Made by a program: the position numbers and the translations under genes. This document shows, piece after piece, positions 6,882 through 16,473 of a stretch of 21,672 bases of DNA (position 1 is the stretch's first letter; every line of letters begins with the position of its first letter). The notes beneath the pieces were generated by a model. The model was not told the DNA's origin and did not search any database. It was given only the letters and a program-made list of their open reading frames with translations. Source of the DNA: a virus; IMG/VR virus record IMGVR_UViG_3300008261_000183, positions 1 through 21,672 of that record; one strand, written 5' to 3'.

Positions 6882-6888
6882 ACGAGGG

Positions 6889-6932
6889 GGGTCGGAGGAG
6901 GAAGAAAGGAGGTAAAAAGCCTCCCCCGACCC
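6889..6932 (+). promoter_or_regulatory. Long GC-rich hairpin in the operon-boundary gap, with an internal Shine-Dalgarno-like box
   Basis: Left arm gggtcggaggagg (6889-6901) and right arm cctcccccgaccc (6920-6932) pair at 12 of 13 positions around an 18-nt loop. The loop contains AAAGGAGGT, a full Shine-Dalgarno match, at 6905-6913, but no start codon lies within reach downstream. A competing shorter hairpin pairs ggagg 6908-6912 with cctcc 6920-6924, so the two structures exclude each other. No U-tract follows the right arm, so this is not a classical intrinsic terminator. It lies 8 nt after the last gene of the structural block. Confidence 0.6.
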
Positions 6933-6946
6933 ACACCCTCAAGGCA

Positions 6947-7005
6947 TGAGGACAGGCATGCCAGAACAGAGTGTAGCACGCAACTAACAGATTGAGGATA
7001 GGCAT
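6947..7005 (+). repeat. Duplicated 13-bp leader motif before the initiator gene
   Basis: TGAGGACAGGCAT (6947-6959) and TGAGGATAGGCAT (6993-7005) match at 12 of 13 positions. The second copy ends at the ATG at 7006 and supplies its GAGGA ribosome-binding site; the first is followed by the palindrome GGCATGCC (6955-6962) instead of a start codon. A small hairpin (CCTCA 6937-6941 with TGAGG 6947-6951) overlaps the first copy. The 124-nt gap 6882-7005 otherwise holds no gene, and I see no convincing -35/-10 promoter. It may be a duplicated leader or an operator pair. Confidence 0.55.
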
Positions 7006-7524
7006 ATGACAAAAAAAGCAAGCAAGTTCGGTGGACCATTTTTACCATTCCCTAGGTGGGCACTTGAGTACCTACAGGGCGATGATGTTGGAATCGTAGT
7101 TTTAGTAACAATTTTGCAATACATGGATTCTGATACGCAAGAACTAACTACCTCTTACCAGTGGATTGGTAAGTTGATTAAACGGGATAGGCGCACAGTT
7201 ATCCGTGCTATGAACCGTTTGGTTTCTATTGGGGTCATTTATCGGACCCCTAGGGTTGGAAAGAAGGGGAGCCTTTCCAATCGCTATTTGGTCAACTTTA
7301 ATAATCCAAATGTGAATAAAGAGATGACTTCTAAGAAGACCCCAGTGTCACGTGTGACACCCCCCCTAGTGTCACTGGAGACACTACCTAGTGACACGGG
7401 TGACACTCCCCCCAGTGTCACGGGTGACACCCAATCAAGAATAACCAATAACAAGAATAACTCTTTCAAGAAGGGGACTGACGGGATTGACCCTCGTTTA
7501 AAGAGGAAAAAGGATAATGGCTAA
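7006..7524 (+). CDS. Winged-helix replication initiator-like protein (lambda O-like role)
   Basis: A 172-residue protein, first gene after the intergenic gap. Residues about 27-100 form a helix-turn-helix/winged-helix domain of the kind found in phage replication initiators: VVLVTILQYMDSDTQ, then SYQWIGKLIKRDRRTVIRAM (recognition helices), and RLVSIGVIYRTPRVGKKG with NRYLVNF (wing). Residues 112-150 are a Pro/Thr/Ser-rich linker encoded by the four iterons. The tail is basic and includes IDPRLK, shared with the next protein. Downstream lie a DnaC-like loader and a DnaB-like helicase, so a role in binding the origin and recruiting the loader, as lambda O does, is likely. The start follows GAGGA at 6994-6998. 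It overlaps the next gene by 8 nt. No O-family similarity is claimed beyond layout and domain type. Confidence 0.75.
   Translation: MTKKASKFGGPFLPFPRWALEYLQGDDVGIVVLVTILQYMDSDTQELTTSYQWIGKLIKRDRRTVIRAMNRLVSIGVIYRTPRVGKKGSLSNRYLVNFNNPNVNKEMTSKKTPVSRVTPPLVSLETLPSDTGDTPPSVTGDTQSRITNNKNNSFKKGTDGIDPRLKRKKDNG
7345..7430 (+). repeat. Four 16-bp inverted-repeat iterons (candidate replication origin)
   Basis: Four copies of GTGTCAC-NN-GTGACAC lie at 7345-7360 (perfect), 7369-7384 (one mismatch, right half GAGACAC), 7391-7406 (one mismatch, left half GTGACAC) and 7415-7430 (perfect). Each is preceded by A, and the spacers between them are 8, 6 and 8 nt, mostly C-rich. Centre spacings are 24, 22 and 24 bp, close to two helical turns, so bound dimers would sit on one face. 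Copies 1-2 and copies 3-4 are read in different frames of the initiator gene, which shows that the DNA rather than the peptide is conserved. This is the layout of an initiator-binding origin inside the initiator gene. Confidence 0.85.
7433..7472 (+). other. AT-rich stretch beside the iterons (candidate DNA unwinding element)
   Basis: Directly after the fourth iteron lie 40 bases with only 10 G or C. AATAAC occurs three times (7440-7445, 7447-7452, 7456-7461), and AAGAATAAC occurs twice (7437-7445, 7453-7461, period 16). The strands are purine/pyrimidine-biased (A-rich on +). This fits an unwinding region next to an iteron array. It encodes the Asn/Lys-rich ITNNKNNSFKK stretch of the initiator, so codon bias of that peptide is an alternative reason for the composition. 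Confidence 0.55.
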
Positions 7525-7906
7525 GAAACAACTAACAGATGATTGGGGCACAGCATTAGGACAAAGCCCCGAAAAGGAGACACCAGTGATTAAGACCAGC
7601 ACCGTAGGACTTCCCTACTACTTCAGGGATTCCCTCCCAGCGTCTATGTCCAGTTTGTATTCAACAATCAACGGTCCTGCTTTGTCTAAAGGTTTTGCCC
7701 ACATGCGGAAAGAAGGGCTAACTACAGAAGACATCAAAGCAACCATTGACAAGTTCATGCAAGACATTGTTGCTAAACCTTTACCAAGTCATGTTGTACC
7801 GTGGAGGGGGTTTTTGGCACGGGTTGATGAATTGGTTAAATGGTCTAAGACAAACCAAACCGAAGACCTTACTGCCCACACAATTGACCCAAGGTTGAAA
7901 AAATGA
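7517..7906 (+). CDS. Unknown replication-module protein sharing a C-terminal IDPRLK motif with the initiator
   Basis: A 129-residue protein without recognised domain. The centre is mostly helical (RDSLPASMSSLYSTINGP, FAHMRKEGLTTEDIKATI, KFMQDIVAK), followed by VVPWRGFLARVDELVKWSK. Its C-terminus AHTIDPRLKK repeats the IDPRLK found near the end of the preceding initiator, but with different codons, so it is a protein-level similarity. Position between initiator and helicase loader suggests a helper in origin assembly or loader recruitment, which is inference. The start lies 8 nt inside the initiator gene and the stop overlaps the next ATG (ATGA). Confidence 0.7.
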   Translation: MAKKQLTDDWGTALGQSPEKETPVIKTSTVGLPYYFRDSLPASMSSLYSTINGPALSKGFAHMRKEGLTTEDIKATIDKFMQDIVAKPLPSHVVPWRGFLARVDELVKWSKTNQTEDLTAHTIDPRLKK

Positions 7907-8106
7907 AAGAGTTTTGGAACAAGTTCTTTGGAAAAACAAACGACCTGTCTTTAAATGATTATGACTTAGATGAATACACTTGTGAATTATGTAACGTTGT
8001 TTTCTCTGAGTACAATCAGTATCTTCTACACTTCGCAAAAGAGCAATGCGTATTAGTTTTTACAGGACTTCCAGACGGACTAGAAATTAGGTTGAAAGAT
8101 GAGTGA
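7903..8106 (+). CDS. Small C2HC zinc-finger-like protein
   Basis: A 67-residue protein. It contains C27-X2-C30-X12-H43-X5-C49 (YTCELCNVVFSEYNQYLLHF...QC), the spacing of a classical zinc finger with a final Cys instead of His. The N-terminus (MKEFWNKFFGK) is basic and amphipathic. It may bind DNA or mediate protein contact at the origin or loader; there is no direct evidence. It is joined to its neighbours by overlaps: ATGA with the preceding gene and 8 nt with the DnaC-like gene. Confidence 0.65.
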   Translation: MKEFWNKFFGKTNDLSLNDYDLDEYTCELCNVVFSEYNQYLLHFAKEQCVLVFTGLPDGLEIRLKDE

Positions 8107-8746
8107 GTGGAAAAGTGCTAAGTACTGGAAGAACCGTCCAGTAGCAGAACGCTTAGATAACTTAAAGATTCCTCGTAGGTACAAGAACACCACGATGTCT
8201 ACCTACAATCCAAACATAGGTGACAAGAATGCTTACGAAGCAATCCTTACTTGGAAGCAAGAGGCATTGAGTCATGTTTCCGAAGGTATGGGTCTTTTGA
8301 TTTACGGAGATTCAGGTGTAGGTAAAACACACCTTGCCCAAGCACTTCTCAAAGAACTTATTACAGAACATCCACTGAGTGGAATGTTTATTCCAGCAAC
8401 TACCTACATTGAAATGATGTACGACGAAATTCGCAATGACGGAGAACTGCCCGAAGAATACGCAGACCAAAATGTGGCTAAGTACCTTCGCCGTATTTAC
8501 GATGTAGTTGTGTTGGACTCACTAGGGGAAGAACACGACAGTGACTTTACAAAGCGTTCATTGATGGCGTTTTTAGAGAATCGTTACAACTGTAAACTAA
8601 CTACCATTGTCACTTCTAACTTGAGTCCAGTGCGTATCAAGGCTCGTTACGGTGAACGCTTTCATTCAATCTTGCATGATTGTTGTATGTCTATTCCAGT
8701 ACTTGGTGACAACCAAAGGGTGACACAGGACTATGCAGGGGAATGA
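8099..8746 (+). CDS. DnaC-like AAA+ helicase loader
   Basis: A 215-residue AAA+ ATPase of the DnaC/IstB-like group. Walker A GDSGVGKT is at 70-77, after LLIYG; Walker B VVVLD at 136-140 is followed by SLGEEHDSDFTKRSLMAFLENR, and a sensor-like TIVTSNLSP comes near 178-186. Length and motif order match phage and bacterial DnaC loaders, which open or place the DnaB hexamer on ssDNA. The short N-terminal region (1-60) would contact helicase. It lies upstream of the DnaB-like gene and downstream of the initiator, as expected for a loader. The start overlaps the previous gene by 8 nt. Confidence 0.9.
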   Translation: MSEWKSAKYWKNRPVAERLDNLKIPRRYKNTTMSTYNPNIGDKNAYEAILTWKQEALSHVSEGMGLLIYGDSGVGKTHLAQALLKELITEHPLSGMFIPATTYIEMMYDEIRNDGELPEEYADQNVAKYLRRIYDVVVLDSLGEEHDSDFTKRSLMAFLENRYNCKLTTIVTSNLSPVRIKARYGERFHSILHDCCMSIPVLGDNQRVTQDYAGE

Positions 8747-9176
8747 CCTCTTAGACTTCTCATCAGTTACTCAAGGTGTAATTTTTGAAGGAGTCCTAGC
8801 AATACCACCAACAAGTACTGTTGCTTTAACCAAGGCTGCTTTTTTTAAGAACCGTGAAAACTGGGCAGCATACTTGCGTATGTGGGAACCAAATGACTTA
8901 CCACTTAAAGCAATGATTGATAGTGCAACACGCTTAGGTGTTGGAACAGATGTATACACTTTTGTTTCTCAAGGTTTTGCAGAAGAAGTAGATAAGTGGC
9001 TCATGCGTAAAGGAATTTCAGTAGCAGTCATGTATTATGGCTCCGTTGAAGAACTCGCATATGACTTGCGCTTTCAACGACAAATCAGGACAATATACAC
9101 AGCAACACAAGAACAGGCAGCCGTAATTGGAATACGTTCTCATGTTGTTGACCCAAAGAAAGCATGGATTTCATAA
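8733..9176 (+). CDS. Unknown protein between loader and helicase
   Basis: A 147-residue protein lying between the loader and helicase genes, overlapping the loader by 14 nt. The fold looks alpha/beta: GVIFEGVLAIPP at 15-26, GVGTDVYTFVSQGFAEEVDK in the middle, GISVAVMYYGS, and TIYTATQEQAAVIGIRSHVV near the end. This loosely recalls the strand order of HAD-type proteins (first strand VIFEGVLA against the usual DxD, final TATQEQAAVIGIRSHVV). The first catalytic Asp is absent, so an active HAD enzyme is not supported. A structural or regulatory role in helicase loading is possible from position only. Start ATG 8733 is the only in-frame ATG near the junction. Confidence 0.6.
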   Translation: MQGNDLLDFSSVTQGVIFEGVLAIPPTSTVALTKAAFFKNRENWAAYLRMWEPNDLPLKAMIDSATRLGVGTDVYTFVSQGFAEEVDKWLMRKGISVAVMYYGSVEELAYDLRFQRQIRTIYTATQEQAAVIGIRSHVVDPKKAWIS

Positions 9177-10432
9177 TGGCTAGTGCCGAACACCTCCTCA
9201 TTAGTAAGGTCATCAACGACAATGACATTTCACATGTTGTTGAGGCTGGTATTCGTCCTAACCACTTCAGCCCACAATGGGAAGGCGTGTGGTTGTGGGT
9301 ACTGGATTACTGGAGGACGCATGCGGCTATTCCAAGTATCCGTGCTCTTAACCAAGAGTTTGCAGATTTAGAACTTGCTGATTCAGGGCGTGAACAGTTC
9401 TCCAACCTTATTGACGAAGTACTGAACTCGTACCGTCACCAGAAGTTGGTTGAAACTATCTCATCGGCTATGCCGTTATTGAATAACAACAGCACCAATG
9501 AAGCAATTCAAATGCTTTCAGATGGTTTGCAAACAGCCTCTGCTGAGGTGGCTCGTCTTCGTGATGTTGACTTGATTCAATCATGGGAAGAACGCATTGC
9601 TCGCTACAACCTGATGAGGGAAACCCCTAACGCTATTCGTGGTATCCCTACAGGGTTTACAGGTCTAGACAGGATTACTGCTGGTCTTCGCCCACAACAG
9701 TTGATTACGTTTGTTGGTGAAGCAAAGAAAGGTAAGTCCCTTATCACTTTGATTATTGCCAACGCAGTACACACTCACGGAAAAGTTCCAATGTTTATTT
9801 CATTTGAAATGAGTATTGAAGAACAGGCTGCTCGGTATGACGCAATCGTTTCAAATATCTCCCACACAAAGATTATTCGTGGAGACTTGACTAAAAAAGA
9901 AGTAGAGAAGATTGAGAAAACACTTAGCATGCGTAAGAACATGCACCCGTTCTTGATGTCCGAAGATAGTTCGTCCCTAACTACTGTTAGTGCTATCGCT
10001 GGAAAGATTCAACAACACCGTCCAGACATGCTTATTGTTGACGGTGTGTACCTCATGGACGATGAGCAAGGTGAGCCAAAAGGTTCTCCTCAAGCACTTA
10101 CTAATATCACTCGTTCTTTAAAGCGCATTGCACAGCGCTTTGATATTCCAATCATTGGTACTACGCAGGTACTCGGTTGGAAGTTAGGTAATAAAAAGTC
10201 ACGCAAGATTACGGCAGACTCAATTGGATACACCTCGTCATTCTCACAAGACTCTGACTTGGTTATTGGTGTTGAGTCTGACCCTGATATTGATAACCAA
10301 GCAATTTTGCGTGTAGTACTTGCTCGCTCTGCCCCAATGGGCGAAGTCAAGATTAAATGGGACTGGGAGAACATGGACTTTTCGGAGGTATTTGAGGATG
10401 AGTCAGGCGACAGCGACGACTGGTATTACTGA
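9176..10432 (+). CDS. dnaB: DnaB-family replicative helicase
   Basis: A 418-residue hexameric-helicase-type protein. The N-terminal domain (1-110) is helical and starts MASAEHLLISKVINDNDI, as in DnaB. The RecA-like C-terminal domain has Walker A GEAKKGKS at 181-188, MFISFEMSIEEQAARYDA (H1a-type motif) near 206-223, Walker B MLIVDG with D289, and PIIGTTQV about 325. DnaB proteins unwind the fork 5'-3'. The start was placed at ATG 9176, which shares its A with the preceding stop (TAATG); ATG 9164 in the same frame adds four residues and cannot be excluded. It overlaps the primase gene by 35 nt. Confidence 0.9.
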   Translation: MASAEHLLISKVINDNDISHVVEAGIRPNHFSPQWEGVWLWVLDYWRTHAAIPSIRALNQEFADLELADSGREQFSNLIDEVLNSYRHQKLVETISSAMPLLNNNSTNEAIQMLSDGLQTASAEVARLRDVDLIQSWEERIARYNLMRETPNAIRGIPTGFTGLDRITAGLRPQQLITFVGEAKKGKSLITLIIANAVHTHGKVPMFISFEMSIEEQAARYDAIVSNISHTKIIRGDLTKKEVEKIEKTLSMRKNMHPFLMSEDSSSLTTVSAIAGKIQQHRPDMLIVDGVYLMDDEQGEPKGSPQALTNITRSLKRIAQRFDIPIIGTTQVLGWKLGNKKSRKITADSIGYTSSFSQDSDLVIGVESDPDIDNQAILRVVLARSAPMGEVKIKWDWENMDFSEVFEDESGDSDDWYY

Positions 10433-11324
10433 CCTACCGAACATTCTCCGTTCAATCGGAGTAGATGTTCGTAAGGAAAATGGAAAAGAGATTGTGGGTT
10501 GTTGCCCTGTGCATGAGAAGCGCACGGGTAAAGCCGACAGGTCTCCATCATGGTCAATGAATAGCACCAACGGTTTATGGATTTGTCATTCCTGTGGTGC
10601 TCGTGGAAACTTACCTATTCTTGTTTCAGAGGTCACAGGTGAGACTGACGCAATTATGGCGGTCCACAACTTAATCATTAGTGCGGGTCTCAATCAGTTA
10701 CAGAACCCTGTGTTTGATAACACTCCAGCACAACCAGTGGACTGGCTTACCTTCAGCGCCTTTGAAAAGCCACCATCGGAAGAACTAACTAATCGTAGGA
10801 TTACTAAAGAATCCTCGGACGAGTACGGGCTTAGGTGGAACACCAGCAAGCAGGCTTGGGTATTGCCTATTGTCTCTCCATTGGGAGAACTCTGGGGATG
10901 GCAGGAAAAAGCAACGGACTATGTGCGTAACTACCCTGTTGGTATAACCAAGAGTCATACTTTATTTGGCATTGAGCGTTTTAAAAGTAGCACGGTGGTA
11001 CTAGTGGAATCCCCATTAGATGTTGTCAGGTTTGCCTCATCCTTTTCAGGAATGCAATGTCTCTCTAGTTTTGGGGTCAACGTCAGTACACAGCAGTTGC
11101 ATTTATTGGCTTCTGTGGCAAACAAGTTAATCGTTGCTTTAGACAATGACGTTGCTGGCCTGACCAAGAGTAAAGAATTATTTAAAACAATGCCTATGTT
11201 TAGGAAAGGCGTGTACTGGTTTGACTACAACGGGACAGACGCAAAGGACATTGGGGAAATGACAGATTCTGAAATTGAGGTTGCATTGAGTGCCTCATCG
11301 GTTATACCGTGGTGGGTGCAATGA
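10398..11324 (+). CDS. DnaG-like primase with CHC2 zinc finger and TOPRIM domain
   Basis: A 308-residue primase. The N-terminal zinc site is C35/C36-x-x-H39 (CCPVH) and C63-x-x-C66 (CHSC), the CHC2-type arrangement. The TOPRIM core has E204 in VVLVESPLDVVRF and D249/D251 in LIVALDNDVAGL, the acidic residues that hold Mg2+. The gene makes RNA primers at the fork and follows the helicase gene, its usual partner. The start was set at ATG 10398, 10 nt after GGAGG (10383-10387). An in-frame upstream start at 10320 would overlap the helicase by 113 nt and adds a sequence unlike primase N-termini. The stop overlaps the next ATG (ATGA). Confidence 0.88.
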   Translation: MSQATATTGITDLPNILRSIGVDVRKENGKEIVGCCPVHEKRTGKADRSPSWSMNSTNGLWICHSCGARGNLPILVSEVTGETDAIMAVHNLIISAGLNQLQNPVFDNTPAQPVDWLTFSAFEKPPSEELTNRRITKESSDEYGLRWNTSKQAWVLPIVSPLGELWGWQEKATDYVRNYPVGITKSHTLFGIERFKSSTVVLVESPLDVVRFASSFSGMQCLSSFGVNVSTQQLHLLASVANKLIVALDNDVAGLTKSKELFKTMPMFRKGVYWFDYNGTDAKDIGEMTDSEIEVALSASSVIPWWVQ

Positions 11325-12871
11325 CATTCAACGGCAAACTATACCCATTCCAACAAGAAGCAGTAGAGCACATGGCTGACCGTGGTCAGATGCTCCTTGC
11401 TGTTGTGATGGGTGGCGGTAAGACTGTTATCACTATTGCAACCTTAGAACACCTTATTGAAAGCGGTGATGTCTCTAGGATTATCGTAGTTGTCCCATCA
11501 TCCCTCAAGTTTCAATGGCTTCGTGAAATTAACAAGTTCACCAAGTCTAAAGCAATTGTTATTGATGGACCAGTAAAGAATCGGCACAACCTTTGGCGTG
11601 CCTCACTAAACGCCAAGTATGTCATTATCAATCCAGAGACATTGGTAAATGACCAAGAACACTTTGAAAAAGTTAAGTTTGAGGCAATGGTGATTGATGA
11701 AGCCACCATGATTAAATCACCACGAGCAAAGCGTTCTAAGTTGTTAAAGAAACTAGGCAAGCGTTGCCAGTATCGTTTTGCACTTACTGGTCAACCGATT
11801 GAGAACAAGCCTGAAGAACTTTTTTCTATTATGGAGTTTGTTGACCCAACAGTGTTAGGTCGGTTTGATGTCTTTGATAAAACCTTCATCATTCGCAACA
11901 GTTACGGCATGCCTGTAAAATATAGGAACCTAAACCAATTGAATGAGTCACTAGGTGAGGCAATGGTTCGTAAGACTCGTGCCGATATTGCAGACCAACT
12001 TCCTAAAGTAGTTACTCAGGTAGTACCTGTTGAGTTTGACAAAGTGTCAGCAAGTTTGTATAACTACATCTCAGATGACTTGCTTGACCAAATTCAAAAG
12101 GCTTTAGCCCAACACGGAAAAGGTTTTGACCTATGGTCGCACTATAACGGTGGCGGTGGTGCTAATGAAGCACAAGGTCAAATCATGTCACGCCTCACCA
12201 TTCTTAGGATGTTGTGTGACAACCCACTATTGATTACAGGTTCTGCCAAAGAATATATTGCTTCTGGTGGTACTAGTGGTAGCCAGTATGCAGCCCAGTT
12301 GGTGTCTCGTAATCTGCTCCCACAAGAACCAGCAATGCCAAAACTTACTGCCGTAGTTGATTACATCACGGATATTCTAAATGAAGACCCAAATAACAAA
12401 GTAGTTTTATTTTCGTTCTTTAAAAAGAACTTGCACTTTATACAACAAATGACAGCGCAACTAACTAAGAGCGTGTTGTTTATGGGTGGCATGGATGCCA
12501 AAGCCCGTGATACGGCTAAACAAACCTTTGCTACAGACCCCAAGACTAGGCTGTTCCTATCATCAGACGCTGGTGGTTACGGTGTGGACTTGCCTGGGGC
12601 TAACTACCTGATATCGTATGACCTGCCGTGGAGCGCTGGAAAACTAGACCAGCGTGAGGCTCGCATTATCCGTCTATCTTCAACACACCCCCATGTTACG
12701 CTTACATCGTTCGTTATGCACGGGAGCATTGAAGAAAGGCAATATGAAATGCTCATGCAAAAACGAGCAATCAATGAAGCGTTCATTGATAAAGGTTACG
12801 ATACACAAGGTAAATTTGAACTAACGCTTAGTTCACTATCAGATTTCTTACGGACATCGGAGGTTAAATAA
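11321..12871 (+). CDS. SNF2/SSL2-type superfamily 2 helicase
   Basis: A 516-residue SF2 ATPase. Motif I MGGGKTVITIA (GGGKT at 31-35), motif II VIDEATMIKSP (D126-E-A-T129), motif III ALTGQPIENKPEELFSIM (the SNF2 pattern), and in the second lobe VVLFSFFKKNL, LFLSSDAGGYGVDLPGANYL (motif V) and QREARIIR (motif VI, from Q444). Motif III followed by IENKPEEL is characteristic of SNF2-family translocases. In phages such proteins are assumed to remodel replication or recombination intermediates. ATG 11321 overlaps the primase stop (ATGA); a GTG at 11309 would add four residues. The last A is shared with the next ATG (TAATG). Confidence 0.9.
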   Translation: MTFNGKLYPFQQEAVEHMADRGQMLLAVVMGGGKTVITIATLEHLIESGDVSRIIVVVPSSLKFQWLREINKFTKSKAIVIDGPVKNRHNLWRASLNAKYVIINPETLVNDQEHFEKVKFEAMVIDEATMIKSPRAKRSKLLKKLGKRCQYRFALTGQPIENKPEELFSIMEFVDPTVLGRFDVFDKTFIIRNSYGMPVKYRNLNQLNESLGEAMVRKTRADIADQLPKVVTQVVPVEFDKVSASLYNYISDDLLDQIQKALAQHGKGFDLWSHYNGGGGANEAQGQIMSRLTILRMLCDNPLLITGSAKEYIASGGTSGSQYAAQLVSRNLLPQEPAMPKLTAVVDYITDILNEDPNNKVVLFSFFKKNLHFIQQMTAQLTKSVLFMGGMDAKARDTAKQTFATDPKTRLFLSSDAGGYGVDLPGANYLISYDLPWSAGKLDQREARIIRLSSTHPHVTLTSFVMHGSIEERQYEMLMQKRAINEAFIDKGYDTQGKFELTLSSLSDFLRTSEVK

Positions 12872-13270: not shown

Positions 13271-13705
13271 ATGCAAGACCCGTTGGCTTACTTTAAAGAC
13301 CTTCCTGACTTTCCAGGAAAACGTCAACCTAAGAATAGGCTTAAAGAAAAGGTAACTAAAGAACTCGCTATTGACCGTTTCAATGGTGCTACTTCTAAGA
13401 AGTACATCATCAATGGACAAGAGCATCAGATGTTTACACTAGGTGAAGTTGCTAAAGCACTTGGAAAGAGTGCAAGTACTTTGCGGGTGTGGGAACACCG
13501 TGGCTGGCTACCAAAAGCCAGTTACCGAACTCCTCCACCAAAGGGTGAACAAATTCCAGGAAAAACTTCTCGTGGACGTAGGTTATACACCTTAGTGCAG
13601 GTAGAGTTTCTCCTAGAAGCAATGGAACAGTTCAATATCTATGAGATTAATCATGGAGACTGGGACGGCTTCCGAAAACATATAAGAAATAATTGGCCCA
13701 AATAA
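13271..13705 (+). CDS. MerR-type helix-turn-helix DNA-binding protein
   Basis: A 144-residue protein with a MerR-like HTH at about 55-83: FTLGEVAKALGKSASTLRVW, then EHRGWLPKASYRTPP, followed by RGRRLYTLVQVEFLLEAMEQ, the wing/second helical pair in which R-x-Y-T introduces the next helix. Phage MerR-like proteins act as transcription regulators or excisionase-like DNA benders. The N-terminal 50 residues (basic, NRLKEKVTKELAIDRF) are outside the domain. No effector-binding C-terminal domain exists. Location in the middle of the replication operon suggests a regulator of early/late expression rather than an excisionase, since no integrase is present. Confidence 0.8.
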   Translation: MQDPLAYFKDLPDFPGKRQPKNRLKEKVTKELAIDRFNGATSKKYIINGQEHQMFTLGEVAKALGKSASTLRVWEHRGWLPKASYRTPPPKGEQIPGKTSRGRRLYTLVQVEFLLEAMEQFNIYEINHGDWDGFRKHIRNNWPK

Positions 13706-13719
13706 CGAAAGAAAAAACC

Positions 13720-14394
13720 ATGACACGCAATTACGACGAAGATGAAACAACAACTACAACGACAGAAGTAACACGCAAACCAAATGCAAACGGGGATACT
13801 CCTCGTGCAAGCCGCATTGTTCGTGGCGGTTGGACAGCAGTAGACGCAGTAAAGAATGCAGACTCACCATTTGCACAACGCCTGCGTGTAACTGAAGAAG
13901 TTCAGTTGATTAAGTTTATTGATGACGAACCATACGCAGCATGGCGTCAACACTGGATTGAGCGCACAGGTCAAAAGTCATTTACATGCCTTGCAGACCT
14001 TGATGAGCGTGGATGTCCACTTTGTGAAGCAGGTGACCGTCCGTCACTTCGCTTTGCGTTTAACGTAGCACTCCTTACTCCAGGTGAGGCTCCTGTGAAC
14101 AAGTCCCTTGAAGTTGGTCCTCGTGTAATTGACCAACTGAAGAACTTCCACAACACGCCACACACTGGTCCACTTACAAAGCACTACTGGGCTATCTCAC
14201 GCACAGGCAAGGGCGCAACCAGCGCAACCAACTTGCAAGTAGTTCGTGAGCGTGACTTGGTTGAATGGAAGTGTGAACCTGCTGACGAACAAATCGCTGT
14301 CTACCTAAAGCACAGTGCTTACACAGCAGATGTAATTCAAATCCCTAATCGTGCAGATTTGGTGAGGATTGCAGCCGAAGAATTCGGCAACTAA
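13720..14394 (+). CDS. gp32-like zinc-containing ssDNA-binding protein (SSB)
   Basis: A 224-residue protein. It has H77-X11-C89-X8-C98-X2-C101 (HW..., FTCLADLDERGCPLCEAGDR), very close to the zinc site of T4 gp32 (His, then Cys-X9-Cys-X2-Cys). Following segments (RFAFNVALLTPG, KHYWAISRTGKG) are beta-rich as in an OB fold. A gp32-type SSB just before the DNA polymerase is the expected arrangement. The N-terminal region has a Thr run (DETTTTTTEVTRK) and is flexible. Unlike gp32, the C-terminus has only a few acidic residues (AAEEFGN). ATG 13720 is preferred over TTG 13693 because the latter overlaps the previous gene and adds a weak N-terminus; the ribosome-binding site is poor (GAAAGAAAA). Confidence 0.72.
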   Translation: MTRNYDEDETTTTTTEVTRKPNANGDTPRASRIVRGGWTAVDAVKNADSPFAQRLRVTEEVQLIKFIDDEPYAAWRQHWIERTGQKSFTCLADLDERGCPLCEAGDRPSLRFAFNVALLTPGEAPVNKSLEVGPRVIDQLKNFHNTPHTGPLTKHYWAISRTGKGATSATNLQVVRERDLVEWKCEPADEQIAVYLKHSAYTADVIQIPNRADLVRIAAEEFGN

Positions 14395-14418: not shown

Positions 14419-16473
14419 ATGACTACTTTGGATATCGTTACTACCCTTGACCAGTTACACACGCTGGTCAAGGTAGTACAAGACGCAGGTGCATTTGCTT
14501 TTGACATTGAAAGCCGTGCAGTACTAGAACGCCATCCTGACCTTCAAAAGATTATGGAGGATGAGTTCAAAAAGAAAGCCCTCAGCCTTAAGAGCAAGTC
14601 TCCTGATGTATTGGAGAACTCTCGTAGGGTTATTGAGGAATCCTATAAAAAGGATATTGCTGTCAATCCTCTACGCAATGAGGTCTTTTGGATTGCCATA
14701 GCCACCTTTGGTCATTCTTGGGCTATCCCTATGGGTCACAAGTTAGGTACGCTCCTAGAGCCAGAGGAGGTCGGAGATGGCTCTACAGTGCCTCCAGAGG
14801 GCTATAGGAAGCGTTTAAAGAGCGGTGAGGAGTCAATGGCTAAGGCTCGCTATATCAAGCCAGCCGTCTACGCAGAGCCTCCTAAGCAGTTGAGCCGTTC
14901 TGAGGTCTTTGAGGCTCTAAAGCCCATATTCTTTAGTGACCTAGTTAAGGTTGGACATAACGTCAAGTTTGACGCTCGCTCTATCAGCAAGTACTACGAC
15001 CAGATACCACCTGGACCTTACCTAGACACGATGGTTCTCCAGCACATAGTTTCTGAGAACTTGATGAGTTACTCACTAGAAAAGGTCATTGCACACAACT
15101 ATGACGGGTTAGAAGCCTATGCAAAGGGTGGCAAGTTGGGTAAGTTGATTACCCAAGTTCCTATTGAAGACGCAACGACTTACGTACATCGTGACGCCCG
15201 TTGGACATGGATGCTGTACCAGCGCCTACACAAGCAAATTATTACTAAGCCTGACTTGCTATCAGCACTTCAATTAGATAGCGAAGTGCTTGAGGTAATC
15301 ATGCACATGGAGAACAACGGTATCCCTGTAGATGTCAAAGACTTAAAGAACCTCAACTTGGAGTTAGACCAAGAACTCCGTGACATCTTATTTAAAATCT
15401 TTGAGCACGCTCCAGCAGGATTCAACCCTGACTCAAATAAAAGTAAACAAGAGTTCTTATTCAATCCTAAAAAAGAGGGTGGCTTAGGTTTAAAGCCATA
15501 TAAGAAAACAGACAAGGGTGCACCGTCTGTAGACGAAGAATCACTTCGTAACCTTCAATCAAAGCACCCAATCATTCCCTTGCTCTTAGAGTGGGCTGAA
15601 ATGAAGAAGTTGAAATCAACATATGTTGACGGATTGCTCCCCAAGATGTACAAGAACAGGTTGCACCCTTCGTTCCACCTACACCGCACGGCAACAGGAC
15701 GCTTGTCCTCGTCAGACCCAAACCTACAGAACATTCCTCGTGAATCAAGTATTCGTAAGTTGTTTGTAGCCCCACAACATCATCAGTTGTTTGTGGCTGA
15801 CTATGACCAAATTGAGTTGCGTATCATGGCAATGTTTAGCCAAGACCCACAACTAGTTCGGATTTTTAATACTGGTGAGGATATTCATACGGCTACTGCT
15901 TCTGCGGTGTTTAAGAAAGAGCCTAAAGACATCACCTCTGAGGAGCGTCAGATTGGTAAGGGCGTAAACTTCCTTACCGCATACGGTGGTGGTGCTGCAA
16001 AGTTGGCACGTACTACAGGCATTGAGGAAGAACACGCCATGGAAATCCTTAGCAACTACTACAAGAGTTTCGCAGGTCTTACCGCTTGGAAACAGTCTGT
16101 GGTGGCTACTGGACGTAAGAATGGCTATGTGTCCACCCTTGAGGGAAGGCGTAGGCGGTTACCAGACCTGACTTCCAACGACAACATGCTTCGGTCAAGG
16201 GCAGAGCGCCAAGCCGTTAATGCTGTAATTCAAGGAAGTGCGGCAGATATCTGTAAAAAAGCCATGATAAATGTCCATAACGCTTTACATAACAAGGGCG
16301 TGCGCCTCTTAGTACAGGTACATGACGAACTTATAGCCGCAGTCCCTGACAAAATTGTAGAAGAATCCACACAACCGTTCCTAGACGCTATGGGAGATGG
16401 TACGGTTATTCAACAGATACCGCTAAAGGTGTCTTACGAATACGCAACTAACTGGGCTGAGGCTAAGGGATGA
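14419..16473 (+). CDS. polA: Family A DNA polymerase (Pol I type) with 3'-5' exonuclease
   Basis: A 684-residue replicative polymerase. Exonuclease motifs are FAFDIES (D29, E31; Exo I), VGHNVKFD (Exo II) and YVHRDARWTW (Exo III). The polymerase domain has HRTATGRLSSSDPNLQNIP, motif A VADYDQIELRIMA (D461), motif B RQIGKGVNFLTAYGG (R510, K514), and motif C VQVHDELIAAVP (H635-D636-E637). The Phe of NFLTAYG is at the position that distinguishes dNTPs from dideoxynucleotides (Phe in E. coli Pol I, Tyr in T7). There is no 5'-3' exonuclease domain. About 100 residues between Exo I and Exo II are longer than usual. The gene starts 8 nt after AAAGGA. A strong hairpin lies in its first codons. Confidence 0.95.
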   Translation: MTTLDIVTTLDQLHTLVKVVQDAGAFAFDIESRAVLERHPDLQKIMEDEFKKKALSLKSKSPDVLENSRRVIEESYKKDIAVNPLRNEVFWIAIATFGHSWAIPMGHKLGTLLEPEEVGDGSTVPPEGYRKRLKSGEESMAKARYIKPAVYAEPPKQLSRSEVFEALKPIFFSDLVKVGHNVKFDARSISKYYDQIPPGPYLDTMVLQHIVSENLMSYSLEKVIAHNYDGLEAYAKGGKLGKLITQVPIEDATTYVHRDARWTWMLYQRLHKQIITKPDLLSALQLDSEVLEVIMHMENNGIPVDVKDLKNLNLELDQELRDILFKIFEHAPAGFNPDSNKSKQEFLFNPKKEGGLGLKPYKKTDKGAPSVDEESLRNLQSKHPIIPLLLEWAEMKKLKSTYVDGLLPKMYKNRLHPSFHLHRTATGRLSSSDPNLQNIPRESSIRKLFVAPQHHQLFVADYDQIELRIMAMFSQDPQLVRIFNTGEDIHTATASAVFKKEPKDITSEERQIGKGVNFLTAYGGGAAKLARTTGIEEEHAMEILSNYYKSFAGLTAWKQSVVATGRKNGYVSTLEGRRRRLPDLTSNDNMLRSRAERQAVNAVIQGSAADICKKAMINVHNALHNKGVRLLVQVHDELIAAVPDKIVEESTQPFLDAMGDGTVIQQIPLKVSYEYATNWAEAKG
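14439..14478 (+). promoter_or_regulatory. Long hairpin inside the first codons of the DNA polymerase gene
   Basis: Left arm tactacccttgaccag (14439-14454) and right arm ctggtcaaggtagta (14464-14478) pair over 15 bp with one bulged C and a 9-nt loop (ttacacacg). It begins 20 nt after the start codon of the polymerase, within the region covered by an initiating ribosome. It can therefore lower or regulate translation of the polymerase. T4 regulates its own polymerase through a hairpin at the ribosome-binding site; a similar autoregulation is inference here. The arms encode VTTLDQ and LVKVVQ, so no peptide constraint requires such pairing. Confidence 0.65.

Follow-up and report, generated by a model that had tools for sequence, protein, structure and literature searches.

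The replication origin of phage lambda lies midway along the initiator gene and consists of four iterons, each an inverted repeat; an AT-rich stretch adjoins them, and a gene with helicase-loader function follows downstream (PMC7466680). The rep gene of pSK41 contains four Rep boxes, and the Rep protein of pPR9, which supports autonomous replication, carries an N-terminal pfam13730 (HTH_36) helix-turn-helix domain in place of the RepA_N domain (PMC5703833). Here we analyzed a stretch of viral DNA of 21,672 nucleotides, the window, which covers positions 1 to 21,672 of record IMGVR_UViG_3300008261_000183. An array of four iterons (positions 7345 to 7430) lies within the coding sequence of a winged-helix protein (7006 to 7524). 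Our analysis indicates that this array is very probably the replication origin of the phage, an intragenic origin of the lambda O type used by the product of its own gene; that replication starts there is what we infer from the evidence described below.

The locus resembles the origin and O protein of lambda, and the origins of Stx phages, in its four intragenic iterons, the AT-rich DNA adjoining them, the matches of the initiator to O-like PHROGs families, and the loader gene downstream. The 16-bp unit is unrelated in sequence to the 19-bp imperfect repeat of lambda, and, unlike lambda, the window has a short initiator of 172 amino acids and brings replisome genes of its own, for DnaB, a primase, an SSB-like protein, and PolA. 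As its loader, the window encodes a DnaC-like protein (phrog_50) rather than one of the lambda P type, and a partner protein of no known family stands between this loader and the initiator. Therefore, the locus is not a lambdoid O/P module, though it would work like lambda ori. With pSK41-type RepA_N origins the window shares four boxes inside the initiator gene and a winged-helix N terminus, and relatives of the window protein match pfam13730, the Pfam family of the N-terminal domain of pPR9 Rep. In contrast, pSK41 and pPR9 have plasmid copy control and a host-genus-specific C-terminal domain, and the window protein has no Pfam match to RepA_N. No description of the repeat or of the initiator gene family was found in the library of open-access papers that was searched.

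Results

A first-pass annotation, made from the letters of the window, had described four 16-bp inverted repeats, two perfect and two with one mismatch, at center spacings of 24, 22, and 24 bp, and all four units were confirmed at that place. Iteron 1 (7345 to 7360; GTGTCACGTGTGACAC, 0 mismatches) is a perfect dyad with arms GTGTC and GACAC flanking ACGTGT, and a homologous unit is present in relatives. Iteron 2 (7369 to 7384; GTGTCACTGGAGACAC, one mismatch) has the same arms flanking ACTGGA, iteron 3 (7391 to 7406; GTGACACGGGTGACAC, one mismatch) pairs GTGAC with GACAC across ACGGGT, and iteron 4 (7415 to 7430; GTGTCACGGGTGACAC, 0 mismatches) has GTGTC and GACAC flanking ACGGGT and is a perfect dyad in its arms; no strand is assigned to any of these units. 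Judged on the relatives, the unit was refined to GTGWC-N6-GWCAC, which is two inverted 5-bp arms 6 bp apart, with arm centers separated by 11 bp, or about one helical turn. The inner CAC/GTG of the unit as first described varies across relatives, and conservation is confined to the two 5-bp arms.

The window contains exactly four copies of the refined core, all of them inside the array. In 300 first-order Markov simulations, the chance level in 21.7 kb was 0 (263 runs) or 1 (37 runs). A 61-kb contig of the same phage, whose initiator is 99% identical, carries the core at the four array positions only, and in one 95-kb relative (G009) it is confined to the homologous array; a second 95-kb relative (G008) carries it five times in the array and three times elsewhere. 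GC skew along three contigs of 61 and 95 kb was flat, was confounded by gene direction, and showed no turn at the array.

In order to collect relatives without reference to the motif, 14 N-terminal domains were used as queries with the repeat region excluded, which yielded 80 loci and 54 distinct complete genes. Units were counted at the homologous place, allowing up to three mismatches to a GTGWCAC-type unit. Four units were present in 45 genes, three in 5, two in 2, and one in 2, and no gene had zero; the flanking background of 413 kb held 2 units with two mismatches or fewer and 53 with three. Spacing in the homologues was mostly 24 or 22 bp, and the array persisted down to about 41% identity. 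Relatives that share the module and lack the repeats, which had been named as the finding that would speak against an origin, were searched for, and none was found. The expectation that relatives would carry iterons at the same place but with diverged sequence held for the place; most relatives keep the same word, however, and diverged words were found only where the recognition helix had changed.

The array region does encode a linker, rich in GDT and VTP, and unrelated 9-bp tandem repeats that contain GTGWCAC exist in repeat proteins. The units might thus reflect a low-complexity peptide linker or a drifting tandem repeat, in DNA that has no role of its own, an explanation to which we give a next to negligible probability. 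It is contradicted by the reading frames: copies 1 and 2 are read in one frame and copies 3 and 4 in another, as the annotation had claimed, and in relatives the four units follow the patterns (0,0,1,1), (0,1,1,1), (1,1,0,1), and (0,1,1,0). In addition, the dyad, the N6 gap, and the four-unit count remain constant in relatives though the encoded peptides differ, and changes in the iterons follow the recognition helix, as shown below. Since the frame in which a homologous unit is read differs among relatives, selection acts on the DNA and not on the peptide, and the constraint on DNA that had been proposed from the window is borne out by the four patterns found in relatives.

Three further sets of loci were observed alongside these. 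In IMGVR_UViG_3300003650_000022, the initiator is only 115 amino acids long, and the locus keeps the AT-rich stretch but just one unit, the other three appearing to be deleted. The podophage Podoviridae sp. ctCJ8213 (MW202738.1) was found through the array DNA alone; the match covers a pair of units, spaced 24 bp, within a gene whose annotation is helix-turn-helix domain. Bacteroidaceae genomes (L155, L159, and L166) contain GTGWCAC pairs arrayed at 22-bp spacing; no open reading frame of at least 80 amino acids covers these arrays, which are possibly intergenic, and those of L155 and L166 are identical over the matched stretch.

The gene that holds the array (7006 to 7524, plus strand) was assigned as an O-like winged-helix initiator of 172 amino acids on the basis of PHROGs, a sub-cutoff HTH_36 match, and an AF2 model. 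Its PHROGs matches are to O-like and other replication-initiation families, the best being phrog_391 (E = 1.4e-11), followed by phrog_270 (1.6e-11), phrog_8540 (2.7e-9), and phrog_345 (2.8e-8). HTH_36 (PF13730) scored 22.4 bits on the window protein against a cutoff of 25, and close relatives exceed the cutoff. Residues 1 to 104 were modeled as a winged helix (pLDDT of 82), in which the recognition helix starts at DRRTVIR, at about residues 61 to 67. A fold search with the model returned generic winged helices, none at E < 0.001, including the plasmid initiators 4pql, 4pt7, and 5kbj; the remote fold likeness to these three is the only resemblance to RepA_N proteins. These data, together with the downstream genes, agree with the original description of the array-bearing gene as one for a winged-helix protein with a DnaC-like loader and DnaB downstream. 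Against the origin reading, the initiator is a short protein that stops a little way past the array and lacks the C-terminal region of the longer O-like proteins found here. A tblastn search with the initiator in named phages gave a single weak group of Vibrio phages, and that locus has no array.

The nearest solved folds of the winged helix are mostly those of transcription regulators (MarR, CodY, and similar proteins). Together with the palindromic form of the sites and the position of the array inside the operon, this would fit an operator at which the winged-helix protein represses or roadblocks the replication operon, with replication starting elsewhere. We consider this improbable, as the sites lie about 340 bp into the coding sequence, which is not a promoter position, and the word is absent elsewhere in the contig, including the intergenic stretch from 6882 to 7005. 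Furthermore, PHROGs links the protein to replication initiators, the array has AT-rich DNA and helicase-loading genes next to it, and the roles of operator and origin can coexist.

Covariation between the recognition helix and the iterons was analyzed in a set enlarged by two added searches to 79 distinct genes, of which 76 had clear four-unit arrays, found de novo with no word imposed. Some loci in this pool had originally been retrieved by means of the word, but it was word-blind searches that yielded the informative exceptions. Genes were grouped by the recognition helix x-R-x-T-V-x-R. With Arg or Ser at helix residue 3, nearly all arms are GTGWC; GTA was absent with Arg (0 of 456 arms) and made up 4 of 56 arms with Ser. 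Thr at this position in the H-R-T-T clade was accompanied by GTA arms in 77 of 80 cases (GTAGC or GTAGT), Ile (L193) by GTATC in 7 of 8, and Thr in L393 by GTA in 3 of 8. Within the H-R-T-T clade, GTAGT made up 25 of 32 arms with Lys at helix residue 7 and 4 of 48 with Arg, such that the Arg-to-Lys change at this residue accompanies a C-to-T change at arm base 5.

In a tree built without the helix columns, well-supported branches require the GTA arm to have arisen separately at least twice. The switch to GTA is complete in two independent lineages and partial in a third; with only two to three independent specificity changes found, the number of cases counts against the strength of the covariation. 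The arms of L393 (IMGVR_UViG_3300027754_000003) are a mixture of GTGTC, GTATC, and GTAGC. This locus is closely related to L389 and L391; it differs from them at few positions, three of which fall in the helix, and its sequence gives the appearance of a transitional stage between two specificities.

Because changes in the iterons track the recognition helix, direct recognition of the sites by the product of the gene that carries them, as first proposed, is supported. The simplest reading of these sequence comparisons would be that the helix of this product contacts the arms of the array, and the covariation is evidence for such binding, not proof of it. The core GTGWC-N6-GWCAC is also present in other, distantly related O-like genes, as might be expected if a host protein or another phage protein bound the sites in place of the gene's own product, in which case the array could still be an origin. 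However, the coincidence of iteron changes with helix changes, in two complete cases and one partial case, would be unexpected for a host protein, and we regard a foreign binder as very improbable. Regarding the operator, the covariation would be equally expected if the protein were only a repressor here.

Directly downstream, the array adjoins an AT-rich stretch (about 7431 to 7490, plus strand), which was recognized from the AT profile and contains repeated CAAGAATAAC and CAAGAA words. In 76 relatives, the 60 nucleotides after the fourth unit had a mean AT content of 66%, versus 55% for whole loci, and a median at the 97th percentile within the locus, so that the AT-rich region anticipated beside the iterons on the pattern of lambda is present. 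The array itself is GC-rich, and a second AT-rich stretch (7280 to 7339, 72% AT) lies just upstream of it. The stretch from 7431 to 7490 is a candidate unwinding element and may serve as the site of melting.

The initiator gene is followed by genes for a 129-amino-acid partner protein (7517 to 7906, plus strand), a small open reading frame, and a DnaC-like helicase loader (8099 to 8746, plus strand; phrog_50, E = 1.4e-34) that is collinear in relatives. After a further open reading frame come a DnaB-like replicative helicase (9164 to 10432, plus strand; PF03796, 1.6e-31; phrog_19, 2.1e-61), a DnaG-like primase with a CHC2 zinc finger and a Toprim domain in Pfam (10413 to 11324, plus strand; phrog_47, 8.1e-34), and an SNF2-type helicase (11309 to 12871) with about 67% identity in the 95-kb relatives. 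A MerR-like protein, an SSB-like protein (13693 to 14394, plus strand; a weak match to phrog_14578, E = 9.7e-5), a family A DNA polymerase, PolA, with a 3'-5' exonuclease domain (14419 to 16473, plus strand; PF00476, 1.2e-117; PF01612, 8.4e-13), and RecA complete the order. The 95-kb relatives share this gene order at 36 to 82% identity. The polymerase, SSB, and primase genes attributed to the phage from the window are present, the polymerase by Pfam, the primase by Pfam and PHROGs, and the SSB-like gene by its weak match.

The partner protein belongs to no known family, was modeled by AF2 as all-helical, and has a DDWG motif at its N terminus and a C-terminal IDPRL tail like that of the initiator. 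A member of the partner family follows the array in 42 distinct initiator-partner pairs, with its gene directly after the array gene and DDWG invariant near the N terminus. A fold search with the partner model gave nothing significant, lambda P standing at rank 6 with an E value of 4.6, which is chance level, and the matches from a sequence search against the PDB were for the most part helical proteins of designed origin, with no replication protein among them. A D-x-R-L-like tail is present on the initiator in 35 of the 42 pairs and on the partner in 35 of 42, where the two sets of 35 differ and the count for the initiator accepts looser variants. Within a phage, the two tails resemble each other (IDPRL in the window; YDDLEVDGRLK and YDDLQVDIRL in L137), and in one clade a variant tail is on the initiator only. 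The matching tails suggest a shared docking site, perhaps on the loader or the helicase, and the partner is a candidate link between the initiator and the helicase loader.

Other O-like or HTH_36 prophage initiators resemble the window in having intragenic arrays directly after the winged-helix codons, often with a spacing of about 21 to 24 bp; they differ from it in that most have other words, longer proteins, and no clear sequence relation beyond the winged helix. We sampled O-like or HTH_36 prophage genes by family, regardless of repeats, from Pseudomonadota and Actinomycetota genomes, and 17 of 37 carried an array of their own word (P < 0.05, codon shuffles), a rough figure because some open reading frames were chosen automatically and possibly in the wrong frame. 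These arrays usually lie in the linker after the winged helix. On this count, it is common for initiator genes to carry iterons of their own, and the window adds a further example. We rejected the possibility that O-like genes universally share the word GTGWCAC, as most prophage O-like genes selected independently of the word lack it and have other words or none detected. In a scan across phyla for paired GTGWCAC units in bacterial genomes, the majority of hits were not origins but 9-bp tandem repeats within repeat proteins or stretches of low complexity. In distantly related O-like proteins whose genes do contain the word, most of the helices read by eye share the ending [RS]-[TS]-V-x-R with the window family.

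Discussion

We directly observed the array, its conservation at the DNA level, its restriction to one locus, the covariation of helix and iterons, and the gene order shared with relatives. The function that we infer from these observations would comprise binding by dimers, melting of the DNA, loading of the helicase, and the start of replication at the array. In the mechanism that we propose, the 172-amino-acid winged-helix protein would bind the four iterons, probably with each 16-bp unit occupied by a dimer whose two recognition helices each take one 5-bp arm, the two arms lying 11 bp apart on the same face of the DNA helix. The initiator complex on the four units would then melt the AT-rich stretch from 7431 to 7490. 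The helical partner (7517 to 7906) and the DnaC-like loader (8099 to 8746) would place the phage DnaB (9164 to 10432), after which the phage primase, SSB-like protein, and PolA would carry on replication.

A broader proposal, for which we see about even chances, is that the phage family is a natural record of specificity switching between initiator and origin, in which an O-type initiator is split into a DNA-binding protein and a partner. One to three substitutions in the helix (Arg or Ser to Thr or Ile at residue 3, Arg to Lys at residue 7, and a change to His at residue 1) would have been matched by changes from GTGTC to GTATC, GTAGC, or GTAGT in both arms of all four iterons, with L393 part-way.

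These results very likely assign an origin and an initiator to widespread uncultured phages that carry their own replisome, on contigs of up to about 97 kb; in such phages, origins are usually unknown. The covariation yields a specific recognition code that relates helix residues to arm bases, as well as a part-switched relative. With this code and this relative, a joint change of specificity in an initiator and in several copies of its origin site becomes directly testable.
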